This document shows positions 14,239 to 54,004 of a DNA stretch of 64,000 nucleotides, one piece after another. How positions within the stretch are numbered: the stretch's first letter is position 1; every line of letters begins with the position of its first letter. Below the pieces are notes generated by a model. The model was not told the DNA's origin. It ran no database searches and saw only the letters and a list, made by a program, of their open reading frames with translations. Source of the stretch: Methanofervidicoccus sp. A16 (lineage in GTDB: Archaea; AGJL01; Methanococci; Methanococcales; Methanococcaceae); contig NZ_CP022242.1 of the NCBI RefSeq assembly GCF_003351865.1, positions 186,001-250,000 on the forward strand, read 5' to 3'. The position numbers and the translations under genes were made by a program.

Positions 14239-14615
<377 letters not shown>

Positions 14616-14820
14616 AATTCTTATTTTATTATATATATACTTTTCCTTAATCTGTTAATCTAAATAAAAGGATTTAAATTAAAAAAGTGTTATCAAGTAA
14701 GGAGTTGTACCTTGAACAGCTATCAAGGTTTCAATAGCAACTATTATAAAATAAAAATAACCTTAGTTCCCATCAAAGTAATGATTTGAATAATTAAATA
14801 ATAAAAAAGACTAGAAAAAA

Positions 14821-15152
14821 CCTTAGTTCCTACCAAGTGTGATTAAAAGAACGATGAAAATGATAATTGTTGTAATAAAAATCATGATTAAAATAATCAG
14901 TATAAAATCTATATAAAAAATCATTAAATATCCTAAGATCTTTCTGAACACATAGGTAAGATAAGGGACCATATTCTGGTATCCACTAATTAGAAGGTAT
15001 TCAGAGGATCGTTCTCCTTTAATATTATTTTTAAAATTTTTTGTATCTAGGATAATAGAAGTTTTTTATTTTTAATTTCTTCTAATTTTTTTAATTATTA
15101 TAATTTTATTGATCATTATTATTTTTAAACTATTTTTTTGATGAGAACTAGG
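14821..15152 (+). mobile_element. Family A inverted-repeat element nested in family B
   Basis: Begins CCTTAGTTCCTACCAAGTG and ends TTTTTGATGAGAACTAGG. Its interior (CCATATTCTGGTATCCACTA near 14971, then a GC-richer TTCAGAGGATCG near 15010) is closely matched at 49500-49550 and more distantly at 53795-53860. It lies exactly 60 bp into the left arm of a family B element, so it probably inserted later. No ORF of significance. No clear direct repeat of its own was found. Confidence 0.72.
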
Positions 15153-15355
15153 ATAATGATCATTATTATGATAAAATAATAAAAGTTTTAAGAGAAATAA
15201 AAAATGAATAAAATTCTGATAGAGGCAGAAAAATAAAATAACCTTTTTTGGACACTGAAGAAACAGAGGTAGGATTACTTTTTAATTTTTTTTAGTTTTT
15301 ATCCTTATTTTTATTTTATTAATATTTTTTATATTATCACTGGTGGGAACTAGGG
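15153..15355 (+). repeat. Partial third element with a family-type right end
   Basis: The stretch ends in TTATCACTGGTGGGAACTAGGG, the inverted form of the family A left end, but has no matching left end. It holds the sequence ACTGAAGAAACAGAGGTAGG (about 15254). Related sequence recurs near 30970 (ACTGAAGAAACAGGGCAGG) and more loosely near 54060 and 19530. It may be a decayed element brought in together with the family A copy. Confidence 0.45.
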
Positions 15356-15725
15356 TTATAATCCTTTAATAAAAATTAATAATAGCGACCTGTTAGAAAG
15401 GATATACTCCACTTCTCCATAGTGTCTTAGAGCGTCCCAGAAAGATTATCTTTATTTTAATTTTAATGCCCTCACTTATACTTTTATTTTTATAATTATT
15501 GTTATTCTTATTAGAATTTTTTTGATGGGAATTAGGGTTAAAAATAATCAAAATTAGATTAAAAATAGAAATATCTTAAAATTATTAATTAAAAGAATTA
15601 ATTATGATAATAAAGTAAAAAATTTTCATTATCTTTTGGATATCCAAGAGTACTATGGATTCCTGTATACTCTTTTTTATTTTTTATTCTTTTTTTAATT
15701 TTCTTATTAAAAAAATAATAAATAG

Positions 15726-23138: not shown

Positions 23139-24203
23139 ATGAAGATACTATATATATGTGGGAGGGAACCTTCTTACGTAAGGAACTCGGTAATACTGAA
23201 AGGTTTAAAACTTCAGAAAGATGTGGAGTTATTGGAATATACGAGCAATGCTGAGAACTATTTCAAAAGATATATATCAGTATTTAAAAAGTATTTATTA
23301 AGATATAGTAGTGATTGTGACATCGTATATGTTGGATTTCTCGGACAACCTATTGTTCCTATAGTGAAGATCTTGTCTAAAAAACCTATAATTTTTGATG
23401 CACTTATTTCAGTATATGATACGTTGTGTTACGATAGGAAAATATTTAGGTCGAATTCCATTATGGGAAAGTTATTGTATCATTTAGATAAAGCTTCATG
23501 TGATTTAGCAGATATTGTCTTGTTGGATACGAATACCCATATAACTTATTTTGTAGATACTTTTAAACTAGATAAAAATAAGTTTAAAAGGATATTTATT
23601 GGCGCTGATGACAATATATTTTATCCACGAGATATTAATAAGGATAATGATAAATTTAAAGTTTTTTATTATGGAACATATTTACCTCTACACGGTATAG
23701 AATATATTGTGAAATCAGCGAAAATTTTAGAGAACTATGAAGATATTATATTTAAAATAGTAGGAAAAGGTTTTGTATATAAAAAAATTATTAACTTAGT
23801 TAAAAAATTAAATATTAAGAATATAGAATTTGTAGAGTGGGTACCTTATGAGGAATTACCTTTAGAAATTGCTCAGGCAGATATTTGCTTAGGTGGACAC
23901 TTTTCAGACATTGACAAAGGGAAAAGAGTAATAGCAGGAAAAACTTTCCAATTCTTAGCAATGAAAAAACCTGTTATCGTTGGAAACAATCCAGCAAATA
24001 GGGAATTACTCACAGATAGAAAAAGTGCCCTATTTGTTGAACATGCCAATCCAGAAGACTTGGCAGAGAAGATCTTAGAGTTAAAAGAAAATGAGAAATT
24101 AAGGGAAAAAATCGCTGAAGGAGGATATAAAGTATTTAAAGAAAGATGCACCCCAAAGGTTATTGGAAAAGAACTTTTAAATATAATGAAAAAGGTTATT
24201 TAA
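23139..24203 (+). CDS. Family 4-type glycosyltransferase
   Basis: GT-B fold transferase of 354 aa. The N-terminal acceptor half starts MKILYICGREPSYVR. The C-terminal donor half contains FKVFYYGTYLPLHGIEY, IKNIEFVEWVPYEELP and a terminal region AGKTFQFLAMKKPVIVGN with the conserved acidic site in a divergent form. Unlike the three genes that follow, it does not carry their shared 3' block. The start is the ATG after GTGATTACT; a GTG three codons earlier is part of the ribosome binding site. Confidence 0.82.
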   Translation: MKILYICGREPSYVRNSVILKGLKLQKDVELLEYTSNAENYFKRYISVFKKYLLRYSSDCDIVYVGFLGQPIVPIVKILSKKPIIFDALISVYDTLCYDRKIFRSNSIMGKLLYHLDKASCDLADIVLLDTNTHITYFVDTFKLDKNKFKRIFIGADDNIFYPRDINKDNDKFKVFYYGTYLPLHGIEYIVKSAKILENYEDIIFKIVGKGFVYKKIINLVKKLNIKNIEFVEWVPYEELPLEIAQADICLGGHFSDIDKGKRVIAGKTFQFLAMKKPVIVGNNPANRELLTDRKSALFVEHANPEDLAEKILELKENEKLREKIAEGGYKVFKERCTPKVIGKELLNIMKKVI

Positions 24204-24214
24204 GTGATACTGTT

Positions 24215-25342
24215 ATGAAAGTAGGAATTATATCTGATAGGTTAAATAGAACATTGGCCGGAGTAGGGAGATATATCTATAATTTAATCAGGGAGTTATC
24301 TAAAATCTCTAAAGATGATTTATTTTTAATTAATTATATTGAAAACAATACTTTTAATCTAAATAAAATAATTATAAATAATCCTTTTAATTTTTTACCA
24401 AAAAAGTATGCTTATTACTCTTGGCATATTTATTTAAACTATTATTTAAAAAGTAAAAAGTTAGATTTAGATATTATACACAGTCCTGAAAATATAACTT
24501 TATTTATTAAGTTAAGAGAAAATCAAAAGAAAGTTATTACAGTTCATGATATTATGCCTTATATTTTTAATCAATATCACCACCTTTTACTTCGCTGTTC
24601 CTACAAATTTTTTCTACTAAAAACCCTTAGAACAGCAGATAAAATAATATCAGTGTCATACAATACAAAGAAAGATATTATAAAATACTTTAAAATACCT
24701 GAGGATAAAATAAAAGTTATTTACCATGGAATTGACAGAAACTACAAACCTCTCCCTGAAGAGGAGATAGAAAGTATAAAAAAGAAATACAATATAAACT
24801 ATCCCTTTATTCTATACACTGGTGGTTTAGCACCAAACAAAAATGTCGAAAGATTGATTTATGCCTTTTATAAATTAAAGAAAAAATTACCTGAATATAA
24901 ATTAATAATTACCGGTATAAAAAGATATAAATACAAATCAATATTTGAAACCATAGACAAATTAAACCTCCAGAAAGATATTATATTCACAGGATACGTT
25001 CCAGAGGAGGACCTCCCCGCCCTATACAACGCTGCAGATCTCTTCGTTTATCCCTCTATATATGAAGGCTTCGGACTTCCACCCTTAGAGGCTATGGCCT
25101 GTGGAACACCTGTGATAACATCTAATACTTCATCTCTACCAGAGGTAGTAGGAGATGCTGGGATAATGGTTGATCCCTACGATGTTGATGGGTTGAGTAA
25201 AGCGATGTATGAGGTTTTAACTAACGATGGGTTAAGGGAAGAACTGAGAAAGAAGGGTTTAGAGAGGGCTAAGTTATTCAGTTGGAAGGAGTGTGCTGAA
25301 GAACATTTAAAGGTTTATGAAGAAGTTTATAATATGAAGTGA
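24215..25342 (+). CDS. GT4 glycosyltransferase, first copy with the shared C-terminal block
   Basis: Mannosyltransferase-like GT4 enzyme of 375 aa. The N-terminal half ([20 protein letters not shown]) binds the acceptor. The donor half includes [37 protein letters not shown] and the [17 protein letters not shown] motif that grips the nucleotide sugar. The last 385 bp of coding sequence (24953-25337) are identical to those of the next two genes. The ATG with GTGAT upstream is preferred over an upstream ATG at 24146 that overlaps the previous gene. Confidence 0.85.
24953..25337 (+). repeat. Shared 385-bp glycosyltransferase block, copy 1
   Basis: Identical at every base, by eye, to 26102-26486 and 27237-27621. 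It encodes the C-terminal donor-binding part of the GT4 enzyme, from [10 protein letters not shown] to the last residues YEEVYNM. It is visibly richer in G+C than the 5' parts of the same genes. Directly upstream, copies 1 and 2 remain similar but clearly diverged. Confidence 0.95.
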
Positions 25343-25351
25343 GGGGAGAAA

Positions 25352-26491
25352 GTGAAAATTGGGATAATATCAGAACCATTAAATCAATCTTTAACAGGAG
25401 TAGGAAATTATACTTATAATTTAATTAAAGAATTAATAAAAATAAACTCTATCAAAGAAACTACCATTTATTTAATTAATTATAATAAAATAAAAATATT
25501 TAATAACTTAGATAATGTTATAATTAATAATCCATTTAAAAATTATCCTGTTAAAACTTATAGTTGGTATATTTATTTATTTATGAAATTTAAAGTACTT
25601 CCTTCTTCAGAACTGTCTTCTTTAGAGATTATACATAATCCTAGCCAGGCGCCAACCTATTTTAAAATTAAACAACAATATGTATATACTATCCATGATT
25701 TAACACCTATACTATTCCCTAATGAACATAAAAATGGAAAATATTTAATTTACAAACTCCTCCTACCAAAAACCCTCAGAACAGCAGATAAAATAATAGC
25801 AGACTCATATAATACAAAAAAGGATATTATAAAATATTTTAAAATACCTGAAGATAAAATAAAAGTTATACACCTTGGAGTTGATGAAAAATATAAACCC
25901 CTATCTGAGGAGGAGATTAACAGTATAAAAAAGAAATACAGTATAAACTATCCTTTTATTCTATACGTTGGGACATTGGAACCGAGAAAAAACATTCCCA
26001 CCCTCATTAAAGCATACTACAAACTTAAAAAACAGGGATTGCCACATAAGCTAGTTATTACCGGTAAAAAAGGATGGAAATATAAATCAATATTTGAAAC
26101 CATAGACAAATTAAACCTCCAGAAAGATATTATATTCACAGGATACGTTCCAGAGGAGGACCTCCCCGCCCTATACAACGCTGCAGATCTCTTCGTTTAT
26201 CCCTCTATATATGAAGGCTTCGGACTTCCACCCTTAGAGGCTATGGCCTGTGGAACACCTGTGATAACATCTAATACTTCATCTCTACCAGAGGTAGTAG
26301 GAGATGCTGGGATAATGGTTGATCCCTACGATGTTGATGGGTTGAGTAAAGCGATGTATGAGGTTTTAACTAACGATGGGTTAAGGGAAGAACTGAGAAA
26401 GAAGGGTTTAGAGAGGGCTAAGTTATTCAGTTGGAAGGAGTGTGCTGAAGAACATTTAAAGGTTTATGAAGAAGTTTATAATATGAGATAA
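25352..26491 (+). CDS. GT4 glycosyltransferase, second copy with the shared C-terminal block
   Basis: GT4 enzyme of 379 aa starting at GTG with GGGGAG 5 nt upstream. The N-terminal third ([20 protein letters not shown]) resembles copy 1 only loosely. The middle ([29 protein letters not shown]) is close to copy 1, and the last 385 bp are identical to copies 1 and 3. This graded similarity is what partial gene conversion would leave. It probably adds the same type of donor sugar as its neighbours but to a different acceptor. Confidence 0.85.
26102..26486 (+). repeat. Shared 385-bp glycosyltransferase block, copy 2
   Basis: Same block as 24953-25337. Here identity ends at the last codons (GAGATAA in place of GAAGTGA), whereas copies 1 and 3 also share the stop codon and the next few bases. 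Copies 1 and 2 extend their identity leftwards by about 20 bp beyond the three-way limit. Confidence 0.95.
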
Positions 26492-26506
26492 ATAGGAGGG
26501 AAAATA

Positions 26507-27626
26507 ATGGTAACTCAAAAAAAAAATTAAAGTTGATGCAATTATTGGATTTAAGATGAATGAAATTTTTGGGAAATATAGAGTATATTATGAAACTGCA
26601 ACGAGACTGACTAACTATATTGATTTTAATGAGATATCATACTTTTTACCGAAATATAAGATTCCATGTAAAACTATTATTTGTAATTTAATATTTTATC
26701 CAAAAATAGTTAAAAATTCTCTCAGGAAAGATACAGATTTAGTTCATGTGTGGTCTCAGGAAGAGGCATTTATTATTAACAAATTTAAATTTAATACAAA
26801 AACAATAGTAACGTGTCTAGATATAATCCCGATATTATACAAAAAAAATAATGGTCTAATATACGCTTCTTTTATAAAATACTCCCTAAAAGGTATGAAA
26901 AAAAGTGACAGAATTATAACAATATCAAAACATGTTAAAAATGATCTTGTTAGACATTTTAGTATTTCAGAAGAGAAGATTAATGTGATTTATTTGGGTG
27001 TTAACGAGCACTATAAACCAATTCCTGAGAATGAAATTGAGAAAATTAAATATAAATATAATTTAAAATTCCCTTTTATTTTATATGTCGGTTCAGAGCA
27101 GCCTAGAAAGAACTTTCCAACACTTATTAAGGCATTTTATAAGCTAAAAACTAAATACGGTTTTAATAATATCAAATTGGTGAAAGCTGGAAATCCTCAA
27201 ATAAGTAAATACAAACGAAAACACATTATGAAATTAATAGACAAATTAAACCTCCAGAAAGATATTATATTCACAGGATACGTTCCAGAGGAGGACCTCC
27301 CCGCCCTATACAACGCTGCAGATCTCTTCGTTTATCCCTCTATATATGAAGGCTTCGGACTTCCACCCTTAGAGGCTATGGCCTGTGGAACACCTGTGAT
27401 AACATCTAATACTTCATCTCTACCAGAGGTAGTAGGAGATGCTGGGATAATGGTTGATCCCTACGATGTTGATGGGTTGAGTAAAGCGATGTATGAGGTT
27501 TTAACTAACGATGGGTTAAGGGAAGAACTGAGAAAGAAGGGTTTAGAGAGGGCTAAGTTATTCAGTTGGAAGGAGTGTGCTGAAGAACATTTAAAGGTTT
27601 ATGAAGAAGTTTATAATATGAAGTGA
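26507..27626 (+). CDS. GT4 glycosyltransferase, third copy, with an A10 tract that frameshifts the best start
   Basis: The donor half is again the identical 385-bp block; the N-terminal half is unrelated in detail to copies 1 and 2. The best start is ATG 26507 with GGAGGG 7 nt before it, but that frame ends after eight codons because of a run of ten A (26517-26526). Removing one A would join it to the main frame ([10 protein letters not shown], then MNEIFGKY). As sequenced, translation could begin only at ATG 26556, giving 356 aa without a ribosome binding site and lacking the first strand of the fold. Either a phase-variable tract, slippage, or a homopolymer sequencing error. Confidence 0.75.
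26517..26526 (+). repeat. A10 homopolymer at the start of a glycosyltransferase gene
   Basis: Ten consecutive A directly after ATG GTA ACT C. With nine A the gene reads from a well-placed start into the conserved N-terminus; with ten it hits TAA at 26528-26530. Such tracts are classical sites for slipped-strand mispairing or polymerase slippage. Confidence 0.85.
27237..27621 (+). repeat. Shared 385-bp glycosyltransferase block, copy 3
   Basis: Identical to 24953-25337 and 26102-26486. The sequence to its left (ACAAACGAAAACACATTATG) has no counterpart in the other two, so the left border of three-way identity is sharp. On the right, identity with copy 1 continues through the stop codon. Confidence 0.95.
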
Positions 27627-30810: not shown

Positions 30811-31989
30811 TTAAAATAATAACAACCATCGAGATGTCGAATAATAATAATTATAATAAAGAATAATTAAAATCAGAAAATAAAGAATATTTAAACTGTA
30901 AATCCCTAAATGAAGAATAAATACAGGTGAAAAAGTAAAATAAGCTCTTATCCTCTAAACTACACTGTGCACTGAAGAAACAGGGCAGGATTCTGTTAAT
31001 CTTTTTTCTTAGAAGTTTTTTACCTCTTTTTTTATTTACTAATCTTTTACTATCTTTAGGGGCGGTCAAAATAAAATAAATATCAAATAAGTATTTTAGG
31101 GTGTTTTCTCAACTTACAATTAATCTCTATTCAGATCACTCCATACCATAATTAAACAGTTAATTTACTCTTCCCTTCTAACGGGACAAAACTATATTAC
31201 CCTAAATAAAAAATAAATAAATTAATTACTATTAATGAATAAATATGAAATCTTCAATTGTTTTAGTAGAAAAAGATAAAAAAATTAGAATTTCTAAGAA
31301 AAACCATAAGAAAGATGAATACAAAGGAAGAAAAGAAGACTTTAGATAATAATATAACAACACCAGTAAATAAATCCATAGAAATTTTAAATATTGCACC
31401 TTAGCAATATTCTATTGAATTAGAAGTATTTTATATGATTAATAAAGCAAATAAACTCTATAAATTGAGAAAATTTTTATAGATCAATCTTCTATATTTT
31501 ATATTTAAATTTTAAGTAGGATAATTTACAATCTTATTTTTTTTAATTAATAATATTAATTAGAAAAGAGAGAGAACGAAGATATTTATGCTTATATTGA
31601 GCAATATAGACATAAAACTTAATTTAAATCATTTCAAAAAAAAATAAATTTAAGAATAAATTTCAAAATTAAGGTATTTATGAAGAGTTTTCTCCTATTA
31701 ATGGAAATGACATCTATGATGGATTTTAGGGAAAAGAAAAGTGTTTAGGGATTATTAAAAAGATAAAATGAATAATTTACTAAATAAATTAAATTATAGA
31801 AAAATTCTTTTATTTTAATGTGATTGCACTGCTATAATTTCGTATCTGTTGGAGATAAGCATTCTTCTTCTGTCCCTTTGATGAAAAAGGTATTTAAATT
31901 TAGATTTGATATAAAAGAAAGGTATTTAGAAGTTATTTGGATAGAGATATAAAGAAAACTCCAGTATTTATTTAAAAATTTATTAAGTA

Positions 31990-32181
31990 TTGGTTCAGTA
32001 TCGATACTGCAAAAAGCATGATTTAATTATCCTAAAGGATAAAGAAGAAGAATTCGCTAAAATGGTAAAGGAAAAAGTTGTTATAAGTGATAAAGAGCAT
32101 GTAAACAGGGAATTTGCCGAAGAAATGGAGAAAAGGGGTATTATATTCATCACAATAAGAGGAAAACATGATAAAGAGTGA
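31990..32181 (+). CDS. Doubtful small ORF, possible gene remnant
   Basis: 63 codons from a TTG, with no ribosome binding site of the local type. The product is charged (HDLIILKDKEEEFAKMVKEK), begins with a Tyr/Cys/His-rich stretch and ends KHDKE. Not recognised. It lies in a decayed-looking gap, so a remnant of a longer gene is more likely than a working peptide, though the amino-acid composition is protein-like. Confidence 0.25.
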   Translation: MVQYRYCKKHDLIILKDKEEEFAKMVKEKVVISDKEHVNREFAEEMEKRGIIFITIRGKHDKE

Positions 32182-32213
32182 TAAGGAACGGGAGTATTGC
32201 AGATCCCTTTCTA

Positions 32214-32245
32214 AACTGAGAAAAAAAATAACACTTTTCTCAGTT
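32214..32245. repeat. Perfect 11-bp inverted repeat (hairpin)
   Basis: AACTGAGAAAA (32214-32224) and TTTTCTCAGTT (32235-32245) are exact inverted copies separated by 10 nt. In RNA this would be a stable hairpin in an otherwise AT-rich decayed region. It could be a terminator, but no intact gene ends here. Confidence 0.7.
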
Positions 32246-32425
32246 GTAGACAACTTCGGATTGAGATATATACGGGCCGTAAGTAGAAAAGGCCTATTTG
32301 TTAAAATTATCCTTAGTCTATTGACGTTTAATACTTATCAGCTAATGGTAATGAGAACTAGGGTAAATAATAAATAATAATATGCCAATAATATTTTGTT
32401 CGTTTTTTATATTATATTTTTTATA

Positions 32426-47570: not shown

Positions 47571-47795
47571 ATGATAATAGAAAAATTAATATCTAAAAGA
47601 GGACAAATATCCATGGAGTTAGGTATATTAGTTGCTGCCGCTGTTGCTGTTGCTGCAATTGCTGCGTATTACTATGTAAAGAGTGTTAGTGATAGTGCAG
47701 GTGCAGCAGAAGATAATGCTACTCAGACAATAAATGAGTTAGGAAGGTTAGCAGAAAATGCTACAGGTAGATTAAGACAAATTACTCTTCAATAA
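47571..47795 (+). CDS. Class III signal-peptide pilin (type IV-like)
   Basis: 74-aa prepilin. The short charged leader is followed by KRGQISMELGIL, the QxSxExxxL class III motif cleaved by the prepilin peptidase EppA in methanococci, with cleavage before Gln. Then comes an Ala/Val-rich assembly helix (about residues 21-38) and a short Asn/Thr/Leu tail with an NAT sequon. A perfect AAAGGAGGT sits 7 nt before the ATG, suggesting high expression. Likely a structural or accessory subunit of pili; the assembly genes are elsewhere. Confidence 0.92.
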   Translation: MIIEKLISKRGQISMELGILVAAAVAVAAIAAYYYVKSVSDSAGAAEDNATQTINELGRLAENATGRLRQITLQ

Positions 47796-47847: not shown

Positions 47848-48066
47848 ATGTCCAAAATACTCTCCAAAAGAGGACAGATATCTATGGAGTTAGGTATTTT
47901 AATTTTTGCAACAATTATCGTCTCCGCTATTGCAGTCTATTATTATATCACTAACTATTTAAACTCCAATCCTGACGCTCCAGGAAAGGCAGCGAATAAA
48001 ACTATTGATACATTAAATAATATATCTGAAAAATATAGTAATTCTATAGGTTCCATAACTCTATAA
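47848..48066 (+). CDS. Class III signal-peptide pilin, second copy
   Basis: 72 aa, with the same SKRGQISMELGIL processing site as the gene 50 bp upstream but a different helix (IFATIIVSAIAVYYYI) and tail, which contains NKT. Probably cotranscribed as a two-gene pilin unit. Its weaker ribosome binding site suggests lower expression, as of a minor pilin. Confidence 0.9.
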   Translation: MSKILSKRGQISMELGILIFATIIVSAIAVYYYITNYLNSNPDAPGKAANKTIDTLNNISEKYSNSIGSITL

Positions 48067-49691: not shown

Positions 49692-49719
49692 ATTTTAATT
49701 ATTATTAAGATCTTGTTAA

Positions 49720-50013
49720 CCTTAATTCCCATCAAAGTAATGATTTAAATAATAAAAATAAGAATAATAAATAAGGACTAGAAAAAAATATTATTGAAAT
49801 ATACATTATCTTTAATATCTTTAATAAAATTAATAATAGTAATCTATTAAAAAGGATCTACTCCACTTCCGTAGTATCTTAGAGCATCCCAGGAGAGATT
49901 ATTTATCTCTTATTTTGATCTAAATACATTCTTTTTATATTTTATTAATTTTATAATATTATTTTATAATTTATTGTTCTTATCAGGATTTTTTTATTAA
50001 TAGGGATTAGGGT
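49720..50013 (+). mobile_element. Family B inverted-repeat element
   Basis: Left end CCTTAATTCCCATCAAAGTA and right end ATTAATAGGGATTAGGG (decayed). Core GGATCTACTCCACTTCC...GAGCATCC at 49854-49889. The flanks TCTTGTTAA (49711-49719) and CTTTGTTAA (50014-50022) agree at 7 of 9, or better with one gap. It is the longest family B copy. Confidence 0.75.
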
Positions 50014-53183: not shown

Positions 53184-53458
53184 ATGTAATAAGATAAGAA
53201 AAAAATTAAATTTTAATAATTTTCGAACTATATATAAAAAAATATAGATTAAAAATAATTTTAATAAAAATTATAAAAATAAAAAGAGAGTAAAAACGTA
53301 AAAGCTCCTTTAAAGGGAAGAGTTATTAAAAATCTATAGTGTTAAAATATTTAAAAAATTAAAAATAAAGAACACTTCAAACTAATAGTAACCTATAAAG
53401 AATAATGAAAAAGTAATAAAAATCCAAACTATTAACACCTAAAAATAAATAATATATA

Positions 53459-53685
53459 CCTTAGTTCCCATTAAAGTAATGATTTAAATAATAAAAAATA
53501 TAATATCTAATAATCTAACAAAATTAATAATAGCAACCTGTGAGGAAGGATCTACTCCACTTTCATAGAGTATTTTAGAGTATCCCAAGAGATTATCTTT
53601 TATTTTGATTTTATACCTTCTTTTTATGTTCTTTTATTTTTTATAATTATTATTCTTATCAGAATTTTTTGATGGAAATTAGAGT
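53459..53685 (+). mobile_element. Family B inverted-repeat element
   Basis: Left end CCTTAGTTCCCATTAAAGTA, right end TTTTTTGATGGAAATTAGAG. Core GGATCTACTCCACTTTC...GAGTATCC at 53548-53585, where the pairing ACTC/GAGT differs in a compensated way from GCTC/GAGC in the copy at 17451. No clear direct repeat. A family A copy begins 18 bp after it. Confidence 0.75.
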
Positions 53686-53703
53686 TTTTTAATTATAATA
53701 TAA

Positions 53704-54004
53704 CCTTAGTTCCCATCAGTAGTGATTAAAAGAATAATAAAAAATAACCAATATAAAAATCATTAATACCCTTAGGATCCTTCTGATCATTTAGTTAAGA
53801 TAGAAAATCCTACTCTGAATCCCTGTATTAAAAAATATACAGAGGATCATTCTCCTTCAATATTATTTTTAAAATTTTTTGTATCTGGGGTGATAGAGGT
53901 TTTCTGTTTTTTTAAATATTTTCTTTAATCTTTAATTTTATTATTTTTATAATAATTTTTATTTTTATTATTCTCTAAATTATCCTTTTGATGGGAAGTA
54001 GGGT
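53704..54004 (+). mobile_element. Family A inverted-repeat element
   Basis: Left end CCTTAGTTCCCATCAGTAG, right end CCTTTTGATGGGAAGTAGGG, the right end being identical to the copy at 49351. The interior is diverged but shares ACAGAGGATCATTCTCCTTC with the other copies. The flanks ATAATATAA (53695-53703) and ATAATATAT (54005-54013) agree at 8 of 9. About 300 bp, non-coding. Confidence 0.75.

Follow-up and report, generated by a model that had tools for sequence, protein, structure and literature searches.

The nested mobile element that stands between the rpl37e and glnK-amt genes of Methanofervidicoccus sp. A16 probably descends from a single nest, an A-family MITE inside a B-family MITE, that was multiplied in the genome by gene conversion and by transposition of chimeric units, and the copy described here most likely arrived at its locus ready-nested. 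It lies in a stretch of 64,000 nucleotides, hereafter the window (positions 186,001 to 250,000 of contig NZ_CP022242.1), within a genome of 1.50 Mb on a single contig whose closest relatives are Methanococcales. Positions are those of the window unless given as genome positions, and loci elsewhere on the chromosome are named in thousands of bases (e.g., 903k).

The outer element of the nest (14752-15547 with its flanks) is a B-type MITE of 779 bp (14760-15538) with the ends ACC...GGT. It is bordered by an exact 8-bp target-site duplication, TAAAAATA, at 14752-14759 and 15539-15546, and a score as good as or better than that of this duplication was reached by 0.16% of flank pairings across different stretches. 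The next base (A) matches too, and the perfect 9-bp direct repeat of the original prediction, TAAAAATAA (14752-14760 and 15539-15547), is real; with the ends placed at ACC...GGT, the duplication proper is 8 bp. On the plus strand, the B left arm (60 bp, 14760-14819) opens with the terminal inverted repeat ACCTTAGTTCCCATCA and closes with the inner target GAC-TAGAAAAA, of which TAGAAAAA at 14812-14819 is the left copy; the right copy is absent from this nest, in which B resumes at TATAATCC. Following the arm are an A-family MITE with both terminal repeats (14820-15154; two mismatches to ACCYTARTTCCCATCA at the left and two at the right), a C-family MITE minus its first ~45 bp (15155-15356; right terminal repeat present, left end judged lost by eye), and the remainder of B, core and right end, as delimited by alignment to other B copies (15357-15538), all on the plus strand. 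The minus strand carries the only three open reading frames of at least 30 aa within 14752-15547 (30, 49, and 52 aa). The predicted layout, in which B is cut after a 60-bp left arm and A plus a second partial element sit between the arm and the core, is present with shifts of ~1 base, and the partial element is a copy of a third family, C, intact members of which occur elsewhere; its own left end is gone. Joining the two B parts, as had been proposed as a check, gave an alignment to the uninterrupted copy at 49719-50013 (235k; 191/239) and to four further uninterrupted copies at 239k (174/215), 865k (197/227), 764k (169/224), and 203k (186/218). Identity to these five copies was 75-87%, with scores of 208-291.5 against a maximum of 53 in 200 shuffles each (two-base blocks), and the left arm by itself matched 14 other B arms at 52/60 to 57/60.

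The A, B, and C families are short and non-coding and carry terminal inverted repeats, i.e., they are MITEs. End-like sequences (ACCYTARTTCCCATCA, at most 3 mismatches) occur 19 times in the window against 2.7 expected, and the terminal pattern AACCTTAGTTCCCATCA (at most 3 mismatches) has 423 matches in the whole genome (216 forward, 207 reverse) against 4 for the same pattern read backwards (1 and 3), a number of ends that would suit some 200 elements. At no more than 2 mismatches, forward and reverse matches were 132 and 148 in this genome, 26 and 33 in G001, 21 and 18 in G014, 18 and 18 in G007, 9 and 5 in G006, and 8 and 6 in G004; the other 20 of the 26 genomes had 0 to 5 in total. A script recovered 43 A copies with both ends, of 262-382 bp, from the stretches fetched by their match to the window or to the junction described below, a selection whose proportions are not those of the genome at large. 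Five uninterrupted B copies measured 228-295 bp and another, at 869k, 407 bp; C copies measured 237-248 bp, with intact examples at genome positions 396788-397024 (11-bp duplication) and 117728-117975 (12-bp duplication). Duplications of ~8-12 bp flank the elements: 37 of 642 end pairs lying within 1 kb scored at least 9, where about one would be expected at the null rate of 0.0016, and 13 of the 37, the window nest included, span more than one element by our own sorting. A fold z of -0.96 gave no support to A as a structured RNA, and Rfam run on the window at gathering thresholds matched a tRNA and nothing else.

Thirteen loci of this chromosome carry the junction between B arm and A, always in one orientation. 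A junction pattern matched the genome 14 times: 11 matches at no more than 2 mismatches were junctions (genome positions 200807, i.e., the window nest, 1131052, 1289415, 1433296, 732406, 826472, 1408088, 515470, 903685, 1238586, and 1496085), one at 539970 was a B without A at that point, and two at 3 mismatches were left uninspected. Loci at 450k (a degenerate form) and 1137k were missed by the pattern and added to the count. Across the genomes of 12 relatives there was no match to the junction at 2 mismatches or fewer, and five of these genomes had one match each at 3; in 15 stretches of the same-genus genome G001 (64% complete) we found pieces of A, B, and C and no A-in-B junction. B core follows the insert at seven of the 13 loci (the window, 1130k, 1289k, 826k, 903k, 1238k, and 1496k). 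At 1433k, the fusion of B arm, A, and C recurs, and the right end of A is degenerate in the same way as in the window; there no B core was matched after the insert, and the flanks GACTAGAAAAA and GACTATAAAAA agree at 10/11. With one junction in one orientation at so many loci, A was most likely not inserted into B at the window locus.

The founding event can be read at four of the 13 loci, where a B duplication stands on both sides of A. The inner duplication of TAGAAAAA is 8/8 at 1289k and 1238k and 7/8 at 903k and 1496k, where A is flanked by TGGAAAAA and TAGAAAAA, and at all four loci the right copy is followed by the B sequence (A)ATATTG... The empty target is present in B copies without A, as GACTAGGAAAAATATTG at 118k and GACTAGAAAAAAATATTATTG at 235k, and also at 540k. 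Considering the duplicated TAGAAAAA together with these empty targets, we conclude that A entered B by transposition and duplicated 8 bp of it. Besides the window nest, eight other nests have no recognisable right copy; at 1130k nine extra bases stand in its place (match 5/9, by eye). The relative age given in the original prediction, B before A, therefore holds for the founding event, as the inner duplications at 1289k and 1238k and the empty targets indicate, but gives no date for what happened at the window locus. The extra A in the B core was considered as a marker of the nested lineage and set aside, as the uninterrupted copy at 118k has it too.

One way in which the nest has spread can be read at 903k and 1496k. 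Genome positions 903141-903730 are 100% identical to the 1496k locus over a 590-bp tract that crosses both junctions. Besides the 527-bp insert, made up of A and a partial second A, the tract takes in 39 bp of the B arm on one side and 24 bp of B on the other. Outside the tract, identity per 50-bp window is 72-84% in the B core and 38-56% in the outer flanks. An identical tract that ends inside diverged repeats marks ectopic gene conversion, and since the identity stops short of the B ends, it does not reflect recent transposition. This pair was the only one with a long identical tract between elements among the 39 stretches compared.

Results from the A copies themselves were less favorable to copying. 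A tree was made from 44 copies, with 515k added by hand and four A-core matches lacking one terminal repeat dropped, including the truncated nest at 732k; it was without 1289k, 903k, 1496k, 1238k, and 732k, the first four of which also lay outside the duplication scan. The A copies of eight nested loci did not form a clade (AU p 0.0005), and the one-clade test on trees of alignment thirds gave p-AU of 0.08, 0.0004, and 4e-6. Nested copies were no closer to one another (0.880) than to free copies (0.875) over the first 60 columns, and less close in most later alignment windows. Incompatibility between sites no more than 5 apart in the 44 copies was 0.42 vs. 0.565 (sd 0.019; p ~0.001), with 0 of 1000 permutations as low, and the longest run shared by A copies covered 116 of 216 polymorphic columns vs. 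a maximum of 66 in 200 permutations. By these measures the A copies are strongly mosaic, a clear sign of recombination. Given that signal, the tree is hard to use and is undermined as an arbiter between one nesting and many; the objection to copying raised by the absence of a clade remains.

That objection speaks for independent, site-specific insertion of A into many B copies at one 8-bp target in one orientation, and the exact inner duplications at 1289k and 1238k also suit such insertion. Nonetheless, we consider it improbable, since the base and the orientation are identical in 13 of 13 cases, only four of them show a right inner duplication that can be recognised, and the 590-bp identical tract reaches into B on both sides of the insert. 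Moreover, the site is not obligatory: at 397k, A in plus orientation enters a minus-oriented B at another target, opposite in orientation to the common junction, with an inner duplication of 12/12 and an outer one of 11/12. A similar arrangement occurs at 972k (outer 9/9, inner 8/9), and at 965k a minus-oriented A lies in C with an 11-bp duplication. Nestings with duplications at 397k and 965k bear out, in its plain meaning, the claim that the elements serve one another as targets.

Transposition has probably also carried parts of the nest to new places. Units of B arm plus A that have no B core show duplications of their own at 1408k (10/10, TCAATATCTA), 1137k (11/11), and 515k (9-10, by eye), from which we infer that the left end of B and the right end of A moved together. 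Other chimeras with duplications are A/B-tail at 393k (12 bp), C-tail/A at 176k (9 bp), A/C-tail at 1211k (9 bp), and A/B-core at 1295k (9 bp). The different perfect duplications at 1408k and 1137k argue against the proposal that nests were copied solely within larger chromosome segments, with no later transposition or conversion. Such copying is possible for 826k and 1130k, where ~235 bp upstream of the B arm resemble 540k at ~96%, a locus that has no A at the usual site; however, no other nested locus shared an outer flank when 39 stretches were compared with one another (matches of at least 60 bp and at least 93%), and as a general explanation we regard segmental duplication as quite unlikely. 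Hardly credible is fresh nesting at the window locus, by which B landed at TAAAAATA and A then inserted, with or after C: the intact outer duplication and the alignment of arm plus remainder to intact B copies agree with it, but it would make coincidences of the junction shared with 12 other loci and of the B-arm/A/C fusion common to 1433k, and it leaves the missing right inner duplication to be explained.

Descent of the window copy from a single multiplied nest would involve three steps. A would have transposed into a B at TAGAAAAA with its 8-bp duplication; the nest would then have multiplied, in part by ectopic gene conversion among B copies and in part by transposition of new chimeras with an A end at one side and an outer B or C end at the other, as interchangeable terminal repeats would permit; and the window copy would have been altered further as a C fragment joined the right end of A and the right inner duplication was lost. 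The window copy may have arrived by transposition as a complete 779-bp unit or through conversion of a B that was already there. The window nest alone among the seven with B core has an outer duplication (score of at least 6): 1130k and 826k fell below 6 in the scan, and none was seen by eye at 1289k, 1238k, 903k, and 1496k. The B remainder in the window is nearest to the uninterrupted B at 865k (141/153) and not to another nested B, which may hint at conversion of a resident B in preference to whole-unit transposition. We also entertain, as a tentative idea, that nested A spreads from B to B mainly by homologous recombination, the only detected transposase being dead, and that the chimeric units stem from earlier end-swapping. 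Nothing in this departs from the usual biology of mobile elements, but the history can be read unusually well. A nested pair need not date events at its own locus, and single nests should be used with caution as local clocks; with outer and inner duplications legible at several loci, the chromosome allows the founding insertion, the formation of chimeras, and spread by recombination to be told apart in an archaeon.

Several further arrangements were seen among the fetched stretches. L144 (genome positions 539922-540569) is an apparent multi-level nest, with no A at the usual site, a left end resembling that of C, and another B inside B. At L033 (genome positions 792208-792879), a B with a 12-bp duplication lies beside C pieces, one of them joined to A, and a C/A junction in contig 161 of G001 (GTAGGATTRCTA followed by CC) closely resembles that of L033. 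B followed by A with a spacer of ~18-19 bp was observed at 53458-54004 (genome positions 239458-240004) and at genome positions 869481-870250; the former pair has a 10-bp outer duplication of low complexity, and the tandem B and A may move as a unit.

To place the insert among relatives, we compared the 10 loci nearest by ammonium transporter (L082-L091; 75-90% identity). The intergenic gap between rpl37e and glnK-amt is 1148 bp in the window; rpl37e adjoins glnK at three of the 10 related loci, L082, L084, and L086, with gaps of 126, 120, and 457 bp, and the two most similar of these with both flanking genes, L082 and L084, have no insert. A search at no more than 3 mismatches found no terminal repeat in the three gaps, that of L086 giving only weak AT-rich matches. 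The un-nested form, which the original prediction had proposed to seek in related strains, was not found at these three loci, and divergence of the window flanks prevented alignment of the precise empty site in relatives. Just upstream of glnK, at 14595-14614, is a perfect palindrome, GGAATAGGAATTCCTATTCC, without a second match in the window even when 3 mismatches are allowed; it is identical in L082 and L084 and 19/20 in L086, and it resembles the NrpR operator motif, GGAA-N6-TTCC. The insert lies ~145 bp further upstream of glnK and leaves the palindrome intact. The segment 15600-15725, between the insert and rpl37e, is missing in L082 and L084 and, as DNA, gives a better fold than its shuffled versions (z -2.7); as a candidate for another element it was rejected, its 26 partial matches to other places (best E 6e-7) falling mostly in the AT-rich half.

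Three tandem glycosyltransferase genes (Glycos_transf_1, Glyco_transf_4) occupy 24146-27626, and 385 bp of the second (26102-26486) are 100% identical to the third (27237-27621), which suggests that gene conversion occurs in coding genes too; gene conversion is reported in mtr genes of Methanococcales (PMC4632066). Adjacent copies at 47583-47675 and 47854-47946 (73% identical) are candidate class III signal peptide or pilin-like starts, as read from the DNA.

The terminal repeats of A, B, and C are common to IS982 elements of related genomes. IS982 copies of the Methanococcales genomes G017, G022, G014, and G006 (model NF033520) have ends like ACCTTAGTTCCCATCA...TGATGGGAACTA-GGT, as the MITEs do, and the left end of the two G017 copies matches the MITE terminal repeat at 16/16. 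The G017 insertion sequences are 987 bp long, with direct duplications of 8 bp (TAATTATC) in one and, by eye, 7 bp in the other. In G014, the IS982 model is matched by open frames of 240-241 aa (E 1.8e-35 and 3.7e-37), slightly under the NCBI cut-off of 130 bits; the copy of the same-genus G006 is 942 bp and contains stops. A, B, and C, mostly ~230-380 bp and non-coding, differ from these relatives' elements, which measure ~935-1045 bp and include a transposase gene that is either open, as in G014, or broken. Pfam models PF01609 and PF13612, searched for a live transposase, had no match in this genome. The only trace of such a transposase found in it is a decayed IS982-type element on the plus strand at ~31398-32365 (left end by eye; right terminal repeat at 32349-32364), in which 32126-32335 corresponds to residues 160-231 of a G014 IS982 transposase (44% identity, E 4e-7, one stop) and the DNA is 75% identical to the G006 insertion sequence (L070) over 369 bp. 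These likenesses make IS982-derived MITEs the best reading of the three families, with a local parent that is decayed or missing, and an IS982 transposase would be their probable mover.

Short dispersed repeats are reportedly present in a related methanogen, Methanocaldococcus jannaschii, as the ~100-bp palindromic MJRE1-3, to which the present families may be likened by that description. Titles and the opening lines of abstracts in the open-licence literature held no treatment of the A, B, and C families, and the words "transpos" and "insertion sequence" are absent from the accessible text of PMC8417812. A close parallel is an IS982-derived MITE of a Cardinium endosymbiont (PMC9769881), which is described as a ~240-bp repeat with ends closely resembling those of an IS982 element and no transposase gene, like A, B, and C. 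In Cardinium, however, intact copies of the parent are reported, whereas in Methanofervidicoccus sp. A16 only a decayed parent was found, alongside three families, nests, and chimeras.
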